Source: Cyanidium caldarium (Eukaryota > Rhodophyta > Bangiophyceae > Cyanidiales > Cyanidiaceae). From it: a DNA stretch of 64,000 nucleotides. This document shows positions 18,859-64,000 of the stretch, in pieces (position 1 is the first letter of the stretch; every line of letters starts with the position of its first letter). A model generated the notes under the pieces. That model searched no databases. It was not told the DNA's origin and saw only the letters and a program-made list of their open reading frames with translations. The translations under genes were made by a program, and so were the position numbers. Location: NCBI GenBank assembly GCA_026184775.1, contig JANCYW010000008.1, positions 424,040-488,039 on the forward strand, given 5' to 3'.

Positions 18859-19746
18859 ATGGTGTTCTACTTGATCGGTCTCGGATTGGGAGATGAGCAA
18901 GACATCACGTTGCGGGGGCTGGAAACAGTGCGATGGTGTGCGCGGGTGTACCTCGAGGCGTACACCTCGGTGCTGCCGGTGGATGTCGCGCGGCTGGAGC
19001 GACAGTACGGACAGCGGGTGATGTTGGCCGACCGGGAAATGGTCGAGGACGGTGCCGACGATCTATTGCACGGCGCCGACACTTCCGATGTGGCCTTGTT
19101 GGTGGTGGGCGACGTGTTCTGGGCGACGACGCACCAGGATCTGTGGTTGCGAGCGCGTCGACGCGGCATCGAGTGCGCAGTGGTGCACAACGCAGGTATT
19201 ATGAACGCGGTGGGCGTGTGCGGTCTGCAAATGTACCGCTTCGGGGAGACCATATCGTTGGTGTGGTTTACCGAACGGTGGCGACCGACCAGTTGGTATC
19301 CTCGGTTGGCGGCGAATCGCCAGCGCGGCCTGCACACGCTGTGCCTGTTGGATATTCGGGTGAAGGAGCCCACCGAGGAGAGTTTGGCGCGCGGCAAACC
19401 GGTGTATGAGGCGCCGCGGTTTATGAGCGTGGCCGAGGCTGCCCAGCAGTTGTTGCAAGTGGCCGCGTGGCGAAGAGAACGGAGGAACGGGCAGGCGAAC
19501 CCGACCAACGACGCCGAAGCGCCTGAGCCATACTGCGCATGCGCGGAGGCGTACACCGCGCAGACGCTAGGTATCGGGCTGGCACGTGCCGGTCAGGCCA
19601 CTCAGCAAATTCTGGTGGGCACCTTGGAGCAGCTGGCGCGTGCCGAACTCGGTCCGCCGCTGCACGCATTGATCATTCCCGGCGAGCTGCACGCGCTCGA
19701 GGCGGAGTTTGTGGCCACGCTGCCCCAGGTCAGCGGGCGGCAGTGA
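18859..19746 (+). CDS. DPH5: Diphthine methyl ester synthase DPH5
   Basis: A 295-residue S-adenosylmethionine methyltransferase that makes diphthine, a step in the diphthamide modification of elongation factor 2. It begins with the family signature MVFYLIGLGLGDEQDITLRG, contains VLLVVGDVFWATTH-type loops (here DVALLVVGDVFWATTH), the conserved HNAGIMNAVGVCGLQMYRFG and DIRVKEPTEESLARG, and ends in the expected GELHALEAEF region. One known-family difference: many DPH5 proteins have GDPFVATTH where this has GDVFWATTH, so two residues of that loop differ. The ATG at 18859 lies in a CCATGG that also encodes an ATG for the opposite-strand gene. Confidence 0.95.
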   Translation: MVFYLIGLGLGDEQDITLRGLETVRWCARVYLEAYTSVLPVDVARLERQYGQRVMLADREMVEDGADDLLHGADTSDVALLVVGDVFWATTHQDLWLRARRRGIECAVVHNAGIMNAVGVCGLQMYRFGETISLVWFTERWRPTSWYPRLAANRQRGLHTLCLLDIRVKEPTEESLARGKPVYEAPRFMSVAEAAQQLLQVAAWRRERRNGQANPTNDAEAPEPYCACAEAYTAQTLGIGLARAGQATQQILVGTLEQLARAELGPPLHALIIPGELHALEAEFVATLPQVSGRQ

Positions 19747-21207: not shown

Positions 21208-22095
21208 ATGGTCCCTGTGGATGGATCGCGACTGCGAGAACAGCTGCAGCAGTTCATCGATGGACACCTGCAGACCGCGTTGGGCGAGGAGGTCTGGCGC
21301 GACTTTGCGCCACCGCTCGGGAGCCGTCTATCCGAACTGTTGCGTTTCGTGCGGCGGCGGTGGTTTGCGGTGTTCTCCGAGACGCGGCTGGCCGACGTCG
21401 GCTACGACGCGGTATGTGAGCTGGAGCGACGGTGCCGCCGTGCGGAACGCGGCGACCCAGCGGTCGACGAGGCGCGTCAGCAGATGCTGCTGGGGCAATT
21501 GATTCGGGTGCTGAACGCTCCAGAACGGCCCCGAAACGGTGTTCGGGCGGCGGCTCAGCGGCAGGACGATCTCCCTCCACCGCCAACAGCGGACGCGCCA
21601 CGCAACGACATCGTCGACGGCTCACCGGCCGACGAGCGCATGCAGGTGGAGTCGGGAGTCGACAGCGTCCATACACATTCGGCCAAGCCGCTGGCGGTGG
21701 TGGACGGCGAGAACGTCGGCTGGCAGTACGGTCAGGGCGTGCGTTTTCAGCCGCGCGGCATTCAGCTGTGTGCGGAACATCTGCGACAACGCGGGTACCA
21801 CGTGGTAGTATTCCTACCGCATTATCGACGGCGGCATGCGGCGCTGCCTTCACTCGCTGACGGTATGTACGTGTTCACACCGCCAGGCGATTACGACGAT
21901 ACCTTCGCGCTGGCGTACGCCCTGCGACATCGCGGCATCCTGGTGACCAACGATCAGCTGCGCGATCACCTGGATCAGTTTTACGAACACGAAGAGGCGG
22001 CGCGGGAACGCATGCGCGTCTGGCTCGGGCGGCATCGCTGCTCGTTCACCTTTGCCGGTGAGGAGTTCATACCACATCCGTCGTTCTTCGTGTGA
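21208..22095 (+). CDS. NYN/PIN-like ribonuclease (Zc3h12a/Regnase-type domain)
   Basis: A 295-residue protein whose C-terminal half is a Regnase-type NYN nuclease domain. The acidic metal-binding residues are all in place: Asp166 in VVDGENVGW, Asp230-Asp231 in GDYDDTFAL, and Asp249 and Asp253 in VTNDQLRDH. The intervening GIQLCAEHLRQRGYHVVVFLPHYRR is the usual second helix and strand. The N-terminal ~120 residues are helical and not recognised. It probably cleaves RNA; there is no CCCH zinc finger, unlike animal Regnase. It meets the nucleotidyltransferase-JmjC gene tail to tail with only 3 bp between stop codons. Confidence 0.82.
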   Translation: MVPVDGSRLREQLQQFIDGHLQTALGEEVWRDFAPPLGSRLSELLRFVRRRWFAVFSETRLADVGYDAVCELERRCRRAERGDPAVDEARQQMLLGQLIRVLNAPERPRNGVRAAAQRQDDLPPPPTADAPRNDIVDGSPADERMQVESGVDSVHTHSAKPLAVVDGENVGWQYGQGVRFQPRGIQLCAEHLRQRGYHVVVFLPHYRRRHAALPSLADGMYVFTPPGDYDDTFALAYALRHRGILVTNDQLRDHLDQFYEHEEAARERMRVWLGRHRCSFTFAGEEFIPHPSFFV

Positions 22096-22098
22096 GCG

Positions 22099-24036
22099 CT
22101 AGGCCGCGTCCACCCTGCGGGTGACCGATACCGACCAGTCGTGTCCGACGGTCTCGATGTGATGCGGCGTGTAGCTGGGGAGGAACAGTCGGTCGCCCGG
22201 TTGGAGGGATACCGTCTGGGCGGCGAGGCCCCCTGATGGTTGCACCTCCCCCACGTACGACTCCACGTCACGGATGCGCGACCGTCGCTGCAGCGGATGT
22301 CCGACCGGGTACATTTGCAACCGAGGAATGTCCTCGGGGGCAAATAGTGTCACCCGCTTGCGGCCGCGCAATTGCACCAGCTCGGTGGGGTACGCATCGT
22401 AGTGCAGCGGGGTGATGGCGCCCGGGGCGCTGATCCACACACGCGGCGCCTGTGCCTCGCGCCGTCGCGAGAAGAGCAGGCGGGCCAGCCAACGAGGCCG
22501 CAGTGCTGTCTGGGTGTATATTTGCTGCGGGTGGTCAGCGATCACCGCCAGCGGAATCCACAGCAGTTGTGAGGGCGCGGTGAACCAACCGCTCTGCACC
22601 TGCGGATGTCCCGTCTTGCAGAAGATAAATCGCGGTCGGTGATAGGCGCGAGCTACCCGCGCTTGCGCCACACTCGCCCACCCGCGTCGGGTGCGTACGG
22701 CGGCGGCGCGCGCCCAGTACAACACGGTGGCCGCGATGAGCGGGTGCACGCTTCGTGGCTGGTGTCGGAATGCGATCGGTCGCCGAGGCGTTGCCGTAGC
22801 GCCTGGTGGGGGTATCGGTCGAAGGATACCGCGAGGCCGACGAGCCGGTCGCGCAGCGGCAGACAACGGTGGGAATGCCGATAAAAGTCGTTCGCCCAGG
22901 GCCATCGGCTCCTCTGCTCTTGATTTCTCCTGCCAACGCGGTGCCGCCTTGCCGACGCGATTTGATATAGATGCCCCGGACGTGAGCGGTGCTCGGCTTT
23001 TGTGCACCACGCCGCTGACATCCGCGTAAGCGAGGGTCAGATAGGCATCTGTCAGGCGTTGCACGAGCTCGGTGGCGGTTGCGACCACGTCCGACGCTTT
23101 CCTGTGTTGGCATCTGGCACCGCAACAGATCTCCAACGCGGCGAATAAGCATTGCGACAGAGCGCCATCGCCTCCGCGCCGTGCAGCCTGCTCCGCAAAG
23201 TGTTCGTAGCACAACACCAGATCGCGCGTCCATCGCGGGTGCTCCATGTCGTGCTGCATCATGGACAACTCCAGCGCCGCGCGAATACACCGCTTGAGCA
23301 GCCACACCCAAGGGCGACCGACGGTGCCGGGCGCAGACGCTTCGCTCGACAGAGGCATGGCCATGGCGCGTGCCAGACCGTCCTCCAGGTCGACCAGCAG
23401 CCGCGGCGTATCGTAGCGAAAGCCGGGCAAATGTGGCAAGATGTCTTGCGGGCTGCGCGAGTGGGCATCGGCCGTCGGTCGTGGCCAAATGCACACCGAC
23501 TGCGTCTGCAACTTGAACGCCACCGGCTCTGGCAGCGAAGCCACATTCCGGAACGGCACCAGCTCCGCGTCCACCACCGGCTCCAACTGCAGTGCCCGCC
23601 GATCACTGGAGCAGCGGGCCTGCCACGCTACCTCTTGCCGCCAGTCCGGCTCTACCCAGTGCTCGTCCGACCAGAGGGGATGCTCTCCTCTTCCTCCCAT
23701 CCTGTCCATCGGTTGCATCAACAGCACCACGTCCAGGTCCGACTCGCCCTCCTTGGCCAATCCGCGCGGCACACTCCCGCGCACGTACGCCGAGTGAACG
23801 CGCCACCGCTCCGCATCACCCCCACACGGCGCGTTCCAGTCCTGCAGCCGCTGCACAACGCGCTCCACCCGCGCTCGCCACGGCGGGGCCACGTGCTCCA
23901 CCGCGGCATCGTTCTGGATGTATCCGGTGGTCGGACAGACCGTCTGCCATCTGCCGCGGCTCCAATCAATGCTCCGATGGATAGGATGCGGTGGTTTCGA
24001 TTCTGTCCAAGCGGCCCGCACGGCGCCGACGAACAT
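22099..24036 (-). CDS. Nucleotidyltransferase - JmjC/cupin_8 oxygenase fusion protein
   Basis: One uninterrupted 645-residue frame with two enzymatic domains. The N-terminal half is a pol-beta-type nucleotidyltransferase: Gly87-Ser88 in VRGSVPRG, then Asp100 and Asp102 in ESDLDVVLL, with a third carboxylate probably Asp156 or Glu158 (VVDAELVPF). After a Pro/Arg-rich linker (about 380-430) comes a cupin_8/JmjC domain: iron ligands His545 and Asp547 (LHYDAYP), RGRKRVTLF, LQPGDRLFLP and His625 or His626 (YTPHHIETV). The cupin half resembles FIH and TYW5 hydroxylases. Substrates are unknown. An internal ATG at MALGERLL could in principle start a separate protein, but no stop separates the halves. 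The frame upstream of 24036 opens only with GTG. Confidence 0.8.
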   Translation of the reverse strand: MFVGAVRAAWTESKPPHPIHRSIDWSRGRWQTVCPTTGYIQNDAAVEHVAPPWRARVERVVQRLQDWNAPCGGDAERWRVHSAYVRGSVPRGLAKEGESDLDVVLLMQPMDRMGGRGEHPLWSDEHWVEPDWRQEVAWQARCSSDRRALQLEPVVDAELVPFRNVASLPEPVAFKLQTQSVCIWPRPTADAHSRSPQDILPHLPGFRYDTPRLLVDLEDGLARAMAMPLSSEASAPGTVGRPWVWLLKRCIRAALELSMMQHDMEHPRWTRDLVLCYEHFAEQAARRGGDGALSQCLFAALEICCGARCQHRKASDVVATATELVQRLTDAYLTLAYADVSGVVHKSRAPLTSGASISNRVGKAAPRWQEKSRAEEPMALGERLLSAFPPLSAAARPARRPRGILRPIPPPGATATPRRPIAFRHQPRSVHPLIAATVLYWARAAAVRTRRGWASVAQARVARAYHRPRFIFCKTGHPQVQSGWFTAPSQLLWIPLAVIADHPQQIYTQTALRPRWLARLLFSRRREAQAPRVWISAPGAITPLHYDAYPTELVQLRGRKRVTLFAPEDIPRLQMYPVGHPLQRRSRIRDVESYVGEVQPSGGLAAQTVSLQPGDRLFLPSYTPHHIETVGHDWSVSVTRRVDAA

Positions 24037-24184: not shown

Positions 24185-25399
24185 TCAACGCTTGATGGCA
24201 TGTAGACAGCCGTAACTGACCCGGTAGTGCATGGCGTGCACACAGCCGCGCCAGTGCACCCAGGCGGCGATGAGCACCAGCAGGTGGAGGATGTTGTGCG
24301 AGTTGAACGCGAGGTCGAACGCACCCGGAAACCACCGCTCGGGCACCCGGAAGGCAAACACCAGTCCGGCAATGATGTACAGGATGCAGGCCGCGGCAAG
24401 TGGCACAAAGTGGTGGGTGAACTCGCGGCTGGAGGCGCCGTACAGGTGCGCCTGATGCACCAGGGCGGTGGACACCAGGAAACCCTGTCCGATGAAGAGA
24501 AACGTGCGGGCGACGATCCAGCGCGACGAGTCGCTGCCGGGCATCAGCACGGCGGTGATGACCAATGCCGTGGCCACGGCGGTAAGCCAGCCGTAGGGGC
24601 GTATCCACTCCGGGCTGCAGTAGAAGCCAAAATGGTTATGCATGATGGCGTGGCCACCGACCAACAGCGCAATGCCCGCATAGTCCACGCGCGCTAGCAC
24701 TTGTAGGCTCTTGCGGCTGACGTGGTTGAAGATGTGGAAGAGGGTGGACGACAGCAGGCACACCATGGCCGCCAGCAGCATCGGCAGCATGGCGCGCCGG
24801 TGTGCCGTGGCCACCTCCTGCCACAGCTGGCTGGAAGCGTCACGGACGGTGTCGTGAGCGGAGTGGCCAGCCCGAGCGCGGTGCAGCCAGATGTGCGGCA
24901 GGCTGTGCAGCCAGCGGGTGAGGCCGGCGGCAGTATCCGACGGCGCTGCCGCCGGCACATCACCCCAGTGCGTCTCGTGGAGCGCGGCGTTCACCAAGCG
25001 CGGCTCCAGACGCACCAACGTGTACAAGGTTACCAACACGAACAGCCAGAATCCCACAAAATGGGAGTAGATGTTGATCGTCTCGTTGTGCAGCCGACCG
25101 AATCCGATCACGATAGCTTCACGCCACGACACGTCAGGGTGCCGATAGTACCGGCGCACGTACACGTTATCACGCATCCAATTTGGAAGTTGATGAAATT
25201 GCAGCCAACTGCGATGGGCTGCTGCCCGAGATGGTGTCCCTGCGTCCGAGGCGCCACTTTTACCGTCCCCGTCTGCCGCTGTGGTGCCTGCCGCTTCTGC
25301 CGCCAACTCCGATCGTTTACCCTGCGCCACGGTTCTCCTCCTCTCCCCACTGCTCCCCTTCCGGATGATATTCCCTGCTTGCCCGTGCTCTCGGGCCAT
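24185..25399 (-). CDS. PAQR-family seven-transmembrane protein (adiponectin-receptor/hemolysin III type)
   Basis: A 404-residue membrane protein of the progestin and adipoQ receptor family, members of which are zinc-dependent ceramidases or receptors. The family signature is complete: RLHNETINIYSHFVGFWLF before the first membrane helix, STLFHIFNHVSRK (zinc His), ARVDYAGIALLVGGH (conserved Asp) and SHNILHLLVLIAAW (HxxxH zinc site) in the last helix. Seven hydrophobic segments are visible. The first ~100 residues are hydrophilic and cytosolic in this family. The frame extends to an ATG at 25591, but ATG 25399 leaves room for the divergent promoter. Ceramidase activity is known for some homologues, not shown here. 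Confidence 0.93.
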   Translation of the reverse strand: MAREHGQAGNIIRKGSSGERRRTVAQGKRSELAAEAAGTTAADGDGKSGASDAGTPSRAAAHRSWLQFHQLPNWMRDNVYVRRYYRHPDVSWREAIVIGFGRLHNETINIYSHFVGFWLFVLVTLYTLVRLEPRLVNAALHETHWGDVPAAAPSDTAAGLTRWLHSLPHIWLHRARAGHSAHDTVRDASSQLWQEVATAHRRAMLPMLLAAMVCLLSSTLFHIFNHVSRKSLQVLARVDYAGIALLVGGHAIMHNHFGFYCSPEWIRPYGWLTAVATALVITAVLMPGSDSSRWIVARTFLFIGQGFLVSTALVHQAHLYGASSREFTHHFVPLAAACILYIIAGLVFAFRVPERWFPGAFDLAFNSHNILHLLVLIAAWVHWRGCVHAMHYRVSYGCLHAIKR

Positions 25400-25580
25400 C
25401 CTGCCACCCAATGATCGGCGTTCCCGAACGTCGGAGCGACACCCGCGCTCACCCACCCACTCCATCCACCGACGATCGGCGATGATCCGCCCGCCCAGGC
25501 ACACACACATTCGTGCAGCCTGCGTGTGCGGGGTGCGTGTGATGATGTTCTGCGAGCGCTGGATCGGGGCACCGGAGCAT

Positions 25581-27095
25581 ATGGGGTTCATCGGGATCGT
25601 TGGTGTGCGGGGTAAGAGTGCGACTCGGCGGGGGAGAAATGCCCCGATACGAGCAGGTCTCGGATATCAGAGACGGCAGCTGCTGCTATGGCAGAATTCC
25701 ACGGCCGTGCGGACGTTGCAGGCGGTCTCGCTCCTGTCGCTGGGCAGCGCCGACGCCCGTCAGCACCTCCGGCTGGGCAACGAACGCGTGAACGGCAGAC
25801 GATCACTGTATGTCACGCGGGATTTCAGTGCGGGTGCCGAGCTTATCAACGTGGACGAGACTGGATGGGAGCGGGCCGACGTGGTGCGGGAACGGTGGGC
25901 ACTGCGCGACGAAACGTGGGACGAGCCGGCCGCCCTGGCGCTGTGTTATTTGGCGGCGCAAGTCGCCGAGGCGAAATCGAAGATGTCGCCGCAGTTGCGG
26001 GAAGTGTTGCGGGACGATAGCGTGCGTGAGCGGCTGCCGCTGTTGTGGGACGACGCGGTCATGGAGGCGTTCCGAGGCACCGAGGTGCGTCGCCGGTGGC
26101 AGGAGCGCCGACAGCGGGCCCAGCAGCAGTGGAAGTCGATGGATGGTGCGTTGCGGCAACGACTGGGCCTGGCGCATTCGGTATCCTTTGAGGATTATCT
26201 GGTGGCGTTGGCGGTGGCCACCGACCGGATGATCACCGCAGCCGACGATTCGGCGGCGGCGCCGGCCTATTTGGCGCCCGGCCTGGACGAGGTGCAATGC
26301 ACTGCACCGTCGGATGCATCGGCGGAGGTGCGTCGACGTCAAGTGGGCCTCTTGCGCAACAGACAGGTGCTGACGCTGGTGGCGTTGCGGGCGTTGCGAA
26401 CCGGCGAGGAGGTGCGCGTCGGTTGGAACGCGTCAGACGTCATCGAGTGCTTTCTGCAACATGGGCGGGTGGACGATAGCGAATCGGGAGTGGAAACAGC
26501 CACCGCCGATGAGGCATCGCCGTGGGCACCGGCGCTCACTTTCGAGTTGAGCACCATGGACCGCTTCTTCGACGACAAGGTGGACATTTTGGAGGCGGTG
26601 GCGACGCGCGGCGGTCCCGCCGGTGCTCCGCGATACACCTTCGCCATCTCGGAGGCGGATGTGCGGGCGTACCGCGCCAGTCAGTCGGGTCCGCTCGGCG
26701 ACCTGATGCAGTTGTTGCGGCTGGTGTGCCTGGCCGGCGCCGATGCGTTTCTGCTGGAGAGCGTGTTCCGCGGCAGCGTGTGGGATCACATGGCGCTGCC
26801 GGTGAGCGACAGCAACGAGCGCGCCGCTTACGACTACATCATGGCCGCCTGCGAGGAGCGCCTGGCGGAAATGGGAGCCGCCGAGGACGCCGCCGGAGAC
26901 GCGGCCACGCCGCGGCAGCGTCACCTGGCGGAGCGCTTCCGGCACGCCGAGCGAGCGGTGTTCCGCGCCATCATCGACTGTTTCCAGGAACAGAAAGCGC
27001 TGATGGGCACCTTTGAGTACTATCAAGAGCGACGGCTGCGCGATCTGGATCTGCTGCGACCGGTGGATCCGTCCGAGGTGGTCGACACCGACTGA
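25581..27095 (+). CDS. SET-domain protein of the Rubisco-LSMT/SETD3 type
   Basis: A 504-residue protein methyltransferase. The SET part starts at RSLYVTRDFSAGAELINV and ends with the pseudo-knot-like RTGEEVRVGWNASDVIECFLQHG (family usually YG.NSNxxLLxxYGF). The C-terminal third is the Rubisco-LSMT substrate-binding domain, with YTFAISEADV, LMQLLRLVCLAGADAFLLESVFRGSVWDHMALPVSDSNE. The N-terminus is basic and could be a plastid transit peptide. Targets in this family include Rubisco, aldolase and, in animals, actin His73; the substrate here is unknown. The usual NHS/NHxx SAM-pocket motif is weakly conserved (the region around AYLAPGLDEVQC), so activity should not be assumed. ATG 25581 is the first ATG after the divergent PAQR promoter. 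Confidence 0.85.
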   Translation: MGFIGIVGVRGKSATRRGRNAPIRAGLGYQRRQLLLWQNSTAVRTLQAVSLLSLGSADARQHLRLGNERVNGRRSLYVTRDFSAGAELINVDETGWERADVVRERWALRDETWDEPAALALCYLAAQVAEAKSKMSPQLREVLRDDSVRERLPLLWDDAVMEAFRGTEVRRRWQERRQRAQQQWKSMDGALRQRLGLAHSVSFEDYLVALAVATDRMITAADDSAAAPAYLAPGLDEVQCTAPSDASAEVRRRQVGLLRNRQVLTLVALRALRTGEEVRVGWNASDVIECFLQHGRVDDSESGVETATADEASPWAPALTFELSTMDRFFDDKVDILEAVATRGGPAGAPRYTFAISEADVRAYRASQSGPLGDLMQLLRLVCLAGADAFLLESVFRGSVWDHMALPVSDSNERAAYDYIMAACEERLAEMGAAEDAAGDAATPRQRHLAERFRHAERAVFRAIIDCFQEQKALMGTFEYYQERRLRDLDLLRPVDPSEVVDTD

Positions 27096-60983: not shown

Positions 60984-62277
60984 GGGTTGTGTGCCGTCGA
61001 AGCATCTCGTTCGGAGTGCGCAGCTGCAGCACTGGTGTGATGAGCACGTGGAGATCAGCGACGGCTGCCGTTGTGACGGAGTGCCGAACGCGCACAAGCT
61101 ACACGAGTCTCGTCAGGCGCTTGTTGAACGGTTGCGTTGGCAGAAGTACGAGAGCGTGCTGGACGAGAACCCTCACGTTACGGTATGGCACGGGGAGGCC
61201 AGCTTTGAGGACTCGCGCACCGTTCGCGTTCGGTCATTGGCAGCGCAAGCGACACAGACCGAGACACTGCTTCACTTTGATCGCTGTCTGATTGCTGTCG
61301 GCGCGGAACCGTACATTCCTCCGATTGACGGGCTTGCGAGTGTGCCTTTCTGGACATCGACCGAAGCGCTGGCAAGCGATACGGTGCCGCACCGCCTCGG
61401 AGTGGTGGGCTCCTCTGCGGTGGCGCTGGAGCTGGCTCAGGCGTATGCTCGTCTTGGCAGCCGAGTGACGATCTTTGCTCGCCGCGGCCTGTGCACGCGA
61501 ACAGACCCTCTCGTGGGCGAAACGTTGATGCAGGCCCTGCTGGATGATGACCGCATCCGGATCCACTGCGGGGCGCTGGTAGAGAGTGTGCAGTGCGAGG
61601 ATGGGGTGTTCAAGGTGACGCTGACGACGTCGCAAGCGGTCTTTATGACGGATGCGCTCCTAGTGGCGAGCGGCCGGAGGCCGAGCACTGCGGCGCTGGA
61701 CATGGCAGCGGCTGGAGTGTCCTGGCACGCTGCTTCCGGCCAGATACCGGTGGATACGCACATGCGCACGAATGTGCCACATATTTACGCGGCGGGTGAT
61801 TGTGCGCAAATGCCGCAACTGGTGTATGTAGCGGCAGCGGCTGGCACCAGAGCTGCGATCAATATGACGGGTGGGGAGGCATGTTTGGATCTGTCGCTGG
61901 TACCGTGGGTGATTTTCTGCGAGCCGCAGGCGGCTGCTGTCGGCCTGACCGAGGCCGAAGCTCAGGCTCGCGGTCTGCGCACCGAAACTCGGACGCTTCC
62001 GATCACGAGCGTACCGAGGTGTATTGTGCATGGCGAGAAGTTTGGGTTCCTGAAACTCGTGGCGGAAACACCGAGCATGCGGATCGTTGGTGCGCAAGCC
62101 GTGGCTGCTGAGGCCAGCGATATGATCTCGACGGTGGCTGTGGCGATGCGAGGGCACCTGACAGTGGCGGATCTGTCAGGCATGTTGCTGCCGTACCTCA
62201 CCGCGAGCGAGGCGGTGAAACTTGTGGCGCAGTCGTTCACGCGTGACGTGCATCAGCTCTCGTGCTGTGCCGGCTAG
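60799..62277 (+). CDS. merA: Mercuric reductase MerA (bacterial type, no N-terminal HMA domain)
   Basis: A 492-residue FAD-dependent disulfide oxidoreductase that uses NADPH to reduce Hg(II) to volatile Hg(0). The FAD loop is [22 protein letters not shown], the redox pair is Cys59/Cys64 in GTCVNVGCVPSK, and the C-terminal Hg-binding pair is Cys489-Cys490 in the QLSCCAG end, identical in form to proteobacterial MerA. WTSTEALASDTVPHRLGVVGSS, NIYAAGDC-like HIYAAGDCAQMPQLVYVAAA and AAINMTGGEA are near-bacterial. The NmerA heavy-metal domain is absent. It most likely came by transfer from bacteria, as known for mercury genes in Cyanidiophyceae. The longer frame from 60613 opens with GTG; ATG 60799 fits the core enzyme. 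Confidence 0.96.
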   Translation: MKADGAVMTGPCCEKDGSSRPLSVAVLGSGAAAMAAVIAATERGAQVHVVERATVGGTCVNVGCVPSKHLVRSAQLQHWCDEHVEISDGCRCDGVPNAHKLHESRQALVERLRWQKYESVLDENPHVTVWHGEASFEDSRTVRVRSLAAQATQTETLLHFDRCLIAVGAEPYIPPIDGLASVPFWTSTEALASDTVPHRLGVVGSSAVALELAQAYARLGSRVTIFARRGLCTRTDPLVGETLMQALLDDDRIRIHCGALVESVQCEDGVFKVTLTTSQAVFMTDALLVASGRRPSTAALDMAAAGVSWHAASGQIPVDTHMRTNVPHIYAAGDCAQMPQLVYVAAAAGTRAAINMTGGEACLDLSLVPWVIFCEPQAAAVGLTEAEAQARGLRTETRTLPITSVPRCIVHGEKFGFLKLVAETPSMRIVGAQAVAAEASDMISTVAVAMRGHLTVADLSGMLLPYLTASEAVKLVAQSFTRDVHQLSCCAG

Positions 62278-62290
62278 TGGGATGCAGCAC

Positions 62291-63734
<1,444 letters not shown>

Positions 63735-63858
63735 GTGTGAGTTGGGTGAGATCGGGCGACCGGGTGTGAGTTGGGTGGGATCGGGCGACCGGGTGTGAGT
63801 TGGGGGGGGATCGGGCGAAGGGGTGTGAGTTGGGTGAGATCGGGCGACCGGGTGTGAA
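63735..63858 (+). repeat. 29-bp subterminal tandem repeat
   Basis: Four units of about 29 bp beginning GTGTGAGTTGGGTGAGATCG (starts at 63735, 63764, 63793, 63823) plus the beginning of a fifth at 63852. Units differ by a few bases and one extra G. The array joins the telomere repeat directly. Confidence 0.93.
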
Positions 63859-63860
63859 TT

Positions 63861-64000
63861 AGGGGGGAATGGGGGGGAATGGGGGGGAATGGGGGGGAAT
63901 GGGGGGGAATGGGGGGGAATGGGGGGGAATGGGGGGGAATGGGGGGGAATGGGGGGGAATGGGGGGGAATGGGGGGGAATGGGGGGGAATGGGGGGGAAT
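63861..64000 (+). repeat. Telomeric repeat array
   Basis: Thirteen exact 10-bp units GGGGGGGAAT (63871-64000) preceded by one variant unit (AGGGGGGAAT). Read as AATGGGGGGG this is one G longer than the Cyanidioschyzon merolae telomere repeat AATGGGGGG. It runs to the end of the window with the G-rich strand 5' to 3' toward the end, so this is a right-hand chromosome end. Confidence 0.93.

Follow-up and report, generated by a model that had tools for sequence, protein, structure and literature searches.

Does a single gene of the hot-spring red alga Cyanidium caldarium encode both a nucleotidyltransferase and an iron-dependent oxygenase? The question is raised by one open reading frame of 645 codons in the window, a stretch of 64,000 bases that forms the terminal part of contig C8 (488,039 bases) and whose G+C fraction runs at 0.63-0.69. 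A sequence-only reading had assigned catalytic residues of both enzyme kinds to this frame, and all of them (G87-S88, D100, D102, H545, D547 and H625/H626) are present where it placed them. The frame lies on the minus strand, from 24036 to 22099, a strand that this reading had not named; the plus strand is interrupted by stops there. We favour, at a probability of about 0.6, a single nuclear gene whose product, a bifunctional protein of about 70 kDa, joins an AadA-like nucleotidyltransferase to an FIH/JMJD5-like hydroxylase. Taken in parts, it is highly likely that the frame is one gene and fairly likely that a single polypeptide is its main product. The frame and its transferase half comprise:

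22099..24036, minus strand: whole open frame, 645 amino acids plus TAG (protein P0001), with the ATG at 24036 and the TAG at 22099-22101
22999..23931, minus strand: nucleotidyltransferase module, residues about 36-346 (predicted AadA-like palm plus C-terminal helical bundle), from bacterial relatives, profile and model/fold
23731..23778, minus strand: G87-S88 ... D100-x-D102 signature (GSVPRG...SDLD), from the bacterial alignment
23563..23565, minus strand: E158, possible third carboxylate, which fits by eye but is shifted by one column in the MAFFT alignment

The frame is confirmed as more than chance, for it holds two homologous modules with metal and nucleoside triphosphate signatures in one stop-free frame. 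The proposal that two catalytic modules share it is borne out by Pfam and by profiles built without the query, which match the transferase half at 80.9 bits and the oxygenase half at 66.9 bits, and none of 500 shuffled versions of P0001 reached even E 100 in the search with either the transferase or the cupin profile. The genome holding the frame comprises 8,787,356 bases in 20 contigs and gives a single full-length match to it. The genome report for C. caldarium 063 E5 gives 8.79 Mbp, 20 chromosomes and 65.7% GC, with 44 introns in a table and 46 in another passage (PMC9812998); a second source counts 44 introns spread over 41 genes (PMC13353863).

The transferase half, with a predicted AadA-like fold, belongs to a bacterial family that has no name and whose members are about 280 residues long. 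Of 334 relatives 80, all bacterial, were kept automatically; their loci total 648,240 bases with flanks of up to 4 kb, some shorter. A script alignment took in 76 of these (open reading frames of 225-345 amino acids), leaving out those of 74, 181, 395 and 519 amino acids, and 35 of the 80 were chosen by hand for alignment A5, the source of all 35-row counts. G87, S88, D100 and D102 are kept in 35/35 rows, as is Arg252, and Asp272 is kept in 33/35. P0001 and this family, which includes members from Bacilli, Streptomyces, Vibrio and others, also have in common the module length, an N-terminal G-Y/F-I motif and the GSVPRG...SDLD signature, at 19-27% identity across the 35 rows. The profile built from these rows matched P0001 in two pieces, residues 36-108 and 172-283, and one that includes the query spans residues 35-346. 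Pfam NTP_transf_2 fell slightly below its cut-off of 21 bits in the whole-protein scan (E 0.0018, 19 bits) and exceeded it in the genome scan, at 22.6 bits for the P0001 frame.

Structure was predicted for each half, as initially suggested. The transferase model is AadA-like, its top full-module fold matches being AadA, AAD(9) and ANT enzymes; the oxygenase model was of low confidence. The modelled transferase appears to have the two-domain fold of AadA and ANT(3'')(9), although identity to AadA and AAD(9) is about 10-13%. A search of solved structures with the family profile placed kanamycin nucleotidyltransferase first (E 2.6e-4). P0001 matched no family in an NCBIfam scan, and against the ANT(9) NCBIfam model (cut-off 340) three of five bacterial kin scored 14.5-22.6 bits and the other two had no match. 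E158 may correspond to the E87 position of AadA; the column beside it holds Glu in 20 of the 35 bacterial rows, Asp in 4, Gly in 9 and Ala in 2. The 11 actinobacterial rows (Streptomyces and Nocardia relatives, for example L049) carry Gly (9) or Ala (2) at this likely third-carboxylate column, which could mean that their branch is inactive or relies on a different base.

The oxygenase half is, by sequence comparison, a putative hydroxylase with an FIH/JMJD5-like Fe(II)/2-oxoglutarate oxygenase core. Its features are:

22123..22461, minus strand: Cupin_8/JmjC oxygenase core, residues 526-638, from Pfam and PDB matches
22396..22404, minus strand: H545-Y546-D547, the presumed iron-binding HxD, with T542 three residues earlier, from alignment with FIH
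22357..22359, minus strand: K560, 15 residues past H545, aligned with an FIH Lys
22162..22164, minus strand: H625, presumed distal iron ligand, aligned with the FIH WWHHIES stretch

Pfam Cupin_8 matched P0001 at E 4.8e-17 (63.1 bits against a cut-off of 27.4) and JmjC_2 at E 2.5e-5, above its cut-off; the six-row cupin profile built without the query covered residues 519-641. Searched alone against the PDB, this half matched FIH best (E 2.4e-12), followed by JMJD5 (3.4e-8) and TYW5 (9.7e-5), and a seven-row profile that includes the query ranked JMJD5 ahead of FIH. FIH is an asparaginyl hydroxylase and JMJD5 an arginyl hydroxylase. The H-x-D...K...H pattern of FIH is matched along an alignment limited to residues 531-637, in which one gap and one insertion cancel; the FIH counterpart of K560 is, we assume, the lysine that binds 2-oxoglutarate. 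P0001 stops 20 residues past H625, whereas the FIH chain continues for 64 residues past the aligned stretch (271 of 335). In FIH the core is followed by C-terminal dimerisation helices, which P0001 lacks. For the low-confidence oxygenase model the top Foldseek match was FIH, with JMJD5 close behind (best E 2.8e-8, template modelling score about 0.3), a result that we take as support only.

Both halves are of known kinds; their combination seems to be new and is so far observed in a single genome. Among the best candidates scored in the alga's own genome, the bacterial member L013 as query matched the fusion gene alone, the cupin half matched the fusion gene and a weak stop-containing stretch on contig C10 (E 0.048), and neither module turned up in a close second copy. 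By eye, the remaining NTP_transf_2 matches in the genome, on C5 and C3, look like poly(A)/terminal-uridylyl-like enzymes, whereas those to Cupin_8, on C11, look like an F-box/JmjC-like protein and a PHD-JmjC protein. In a protein database of uncertain Cyanidiophyceae coverage, the full frame found itself only among the 7,994 scored candidates sharing most words, and neither half on its own matched anything at E 0.001. Our literature searches turned up no description of a nucleotidyltransferase paired with a JmjC/cupin domain, in line with the initial claim that no described protein has both, and beyond the genome papers they yielded nothing about this gene. The main text of a paper on horizontal gene transfer in Cyanidiales contains none of the terms nucleotidyltransferase, cupin or JmjC (PMC6629376).

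Bacteria and viruses yielded no counterpart in these searches. The 80 loci of bacterial transferases showed no oxygenase, fused or nearby, within the flanks given above. We rejected the idea of an operon: the cupin profile had no match at E <= 1 among 3,999 translated pieces of at least 60 amino acids from these loci. Across ten transferase-bearing bacterial genomes hand-picked from the 80 loci, one had a cupin match, and a weak one (E 2.6e-5). The viral transferase search gave 10 pattern matches and no true relatives, a viral cupin search with the Eleftheria protein alone found none either, and the cupin half was unmatched in phage records. Two of 21 pattern matches in the viral cupin search were contigs with unfused oxygenases, recovered by a second alignment; the Cupin_8-like oxygenases at L097:1404-2429 and L098:1227-2357 have an N-terminal extension that is alignable between the two. 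In the origin tree the algal branch, at 3.04 changes per column, is too long for placement. A role as a defence system was also considered and rejected. P0001 matches no PADLOC model; two of four bacterial kin touch PDC-S09 over about 60 palm residues (E 1e-7 and 1.5e-8), other matches are weaker, and one kin also touches the MntA antitoxin model at 23 bits against a cut-off of 60, matches that we attribute to the shared palm.

How the two halves are joined bears directly on whether one protein is made. Two features matter here:

22771..23010, minus strand: linker, residues 343-422, rich in Ala, Pro and Arg with poor codon bias, from codon scores and stop count
22903..22905, minus strand: Met378, possible separate oxygenase start, with no other in-frame Met between 264 and 575

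Several observations count against the frame as read or call for caution, the first being codon usage, scored against 21 long frames of the window, not all of them proven genes. In 25-codon windows P0001 is mostly positive in residues 23-340 and 423-620, and negative both between these and at its ends (residues 1-22 and about 623-645). The linker scores -16.8 over its 80 codons, lower than 95.6% of 638 in-frame windows, and in this respect resembles out-of-frame DNA. Second, residues about 423-525, the expected first half of the cupin domain, have no clear profile match. The Pfam Cupin_8 match starts only at profile position 128-129 of 252, and the oxygenase model, built on a three-sequence alignment, has a predicted local distance difference test score of 39.9 overall and is below 50 and unusable over this stretch. 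These roughly 100 residues are in frame with a weak, mostly positive codon signal, and one Nocardia tblastn match reaches further N-terminal, from residue about 486 (E 4e-4). Third, translation from Met378 could give a separate oxygenase that carries a basic leader.

This last point underlies the rival explanation that survives best, namely overlapping products: the oxygenase would be made mainly from Met378 and the transferase would be a read-through or minor product, after a recent or chance joining of neighbours. Met378 lies within the linker, ahead of the oxygenase, and the Arg/Ala/Pro-rich leader of such a product could serve organelle targeting; coding signal is lost in the linker too. 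Such a composition is, however, also typical of GC-rich DNA read in the wrong frame. The start context at Met378 is weak, with C at -3, but that of Met1 (ATG 24036) is equal, also with C at -3. Genes are closely spaced in this genome, with a mean intergenic distance of 319.7 bp in the genome report (PMC9812998). However, no separate stop closes the transferase frame, and the linker is free of stops in all three frames, as were 1.2% of 2,000 first-order random sequences, so a transferase message would still continue into the oxygenase. We regard overlapping products as possible though unlikely.

A further explanation keeps the fusion and holds that the middle 50-80 residues are misread, through two compensating frame changes (real or an assembly error) or an unrecognised intron. 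In its favour, in 25-codon windows from residues 373-403 the +1 frame scores 0.8 to 1.5, against -2.2 to -9.3 for the frame as read. Yet the +1 signal is small, the whole linker has a positive score in none of the three frames, Pfam gives no match for its +1 and +2 peptides, and 5 of the 21 reference frames also contain an 80-codon window of -16 or lower. Within residues 330-440 we found neither a strong donor nor a pyrimidine-rich acceptor, using splice patterns of our own choosing; an intron with weak sites could still lie there. A misread middle is unlikely on this evidence. The linker is probably disordered, and its codon signal would be explained by disorder, as it would by an old double frame change. 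That the protein is an RNA-modifying enzyme, pairing a TYW5-like tRNA hydroxylase with a tRNA-acting nucleotidyltransferase, is improbable: TYW5, the tRNA yW-72 hydroxylase, belongs to the same Cupin_8/JmjC superfamily and was found in both the PDB and the cupin-profile searches (E 7.3e-36 in the latter), but FIH and JMJD5 outscored it in both, and AadA, AAD(9) and ANT enzymes are the best full-module folds for the transferase half.

If a single bifunctional protein is made, what might it do? The RNA or protein target proposed in the sequence-only reading was not supported, the transferase fold being AadA/AAD(9)-like and the oxygenase nearer to FIH/JMJD5 than to TYW5. We judge a small metabolite or peptide to be a more likely substrate than RNA, because the transferase half shares its predicted fold with enzymes that modify aminocyclitols. 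With both halves active in one polypeptide and acting in sequence, as we infer, the oxygenase half would add a hydroxyl to the substrate and the transferase half would then place a nucleoside monophosphate on the new or a nearby hydroxyl. AadA-type enzymes put AMP on hydroxyl groups, which would make this order chemically natural. Such coupled chemistry, with the halves working in turn, is nevertheless doubtful, and the fuller proposal, that an extremophile red alga evolved, from two families otherwise seen here only apart, one enzyme that hydroxylates its substrate and then adds a nucleotide to the hydroxyl so formed, is quite unlikely; we know of no precedent for hydroxylation-nucleotidylation by one enzyme.

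The distinction between one product and two has consequences. A single protein would physically tie nucleotide transfer to a hydroxylation that depends on oxygen, iron and 2-oxoglutarate. It would give an alga of simple genetics a testable modification in two steps, and the fusion would offer a functional clue to a large family of bacterial nucleotidyltransferases that has no name. Two products would be an ordinary arrangement of a compact genome.

The neighbouring frames encode domains of several other kinds. Tail to tail with the fusion gene, their ends 3 bases apart, lies a plus-strand frame (21208-22095) that has a ribonuclease domain of the Zc3h12a/NYN type (PF11977, E 3.4e-17) and a weak PRORP match. 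Next upstream of the fusion gene, on the same minus strand, is an HlyIII/PAQR-type membrane protein (24185-25591, E 8.9e-39). The plus-strand frame at 25365-27095 has a Rubisco-LSMT substrate-binding domain (E 7.7e-13), by which it is probably a SET-type methyltransferase, and another at 18859-19746, also on the plus strand, has a tetrapyrrole-methylase-family domain (PF00590, E 3.3e-17) and is presumably diphthine-synthase-like. Over 62001-64000 the GC skew climbs to 0.45 towards the contig end, which is probably telomeric or subtelomeric sequence.
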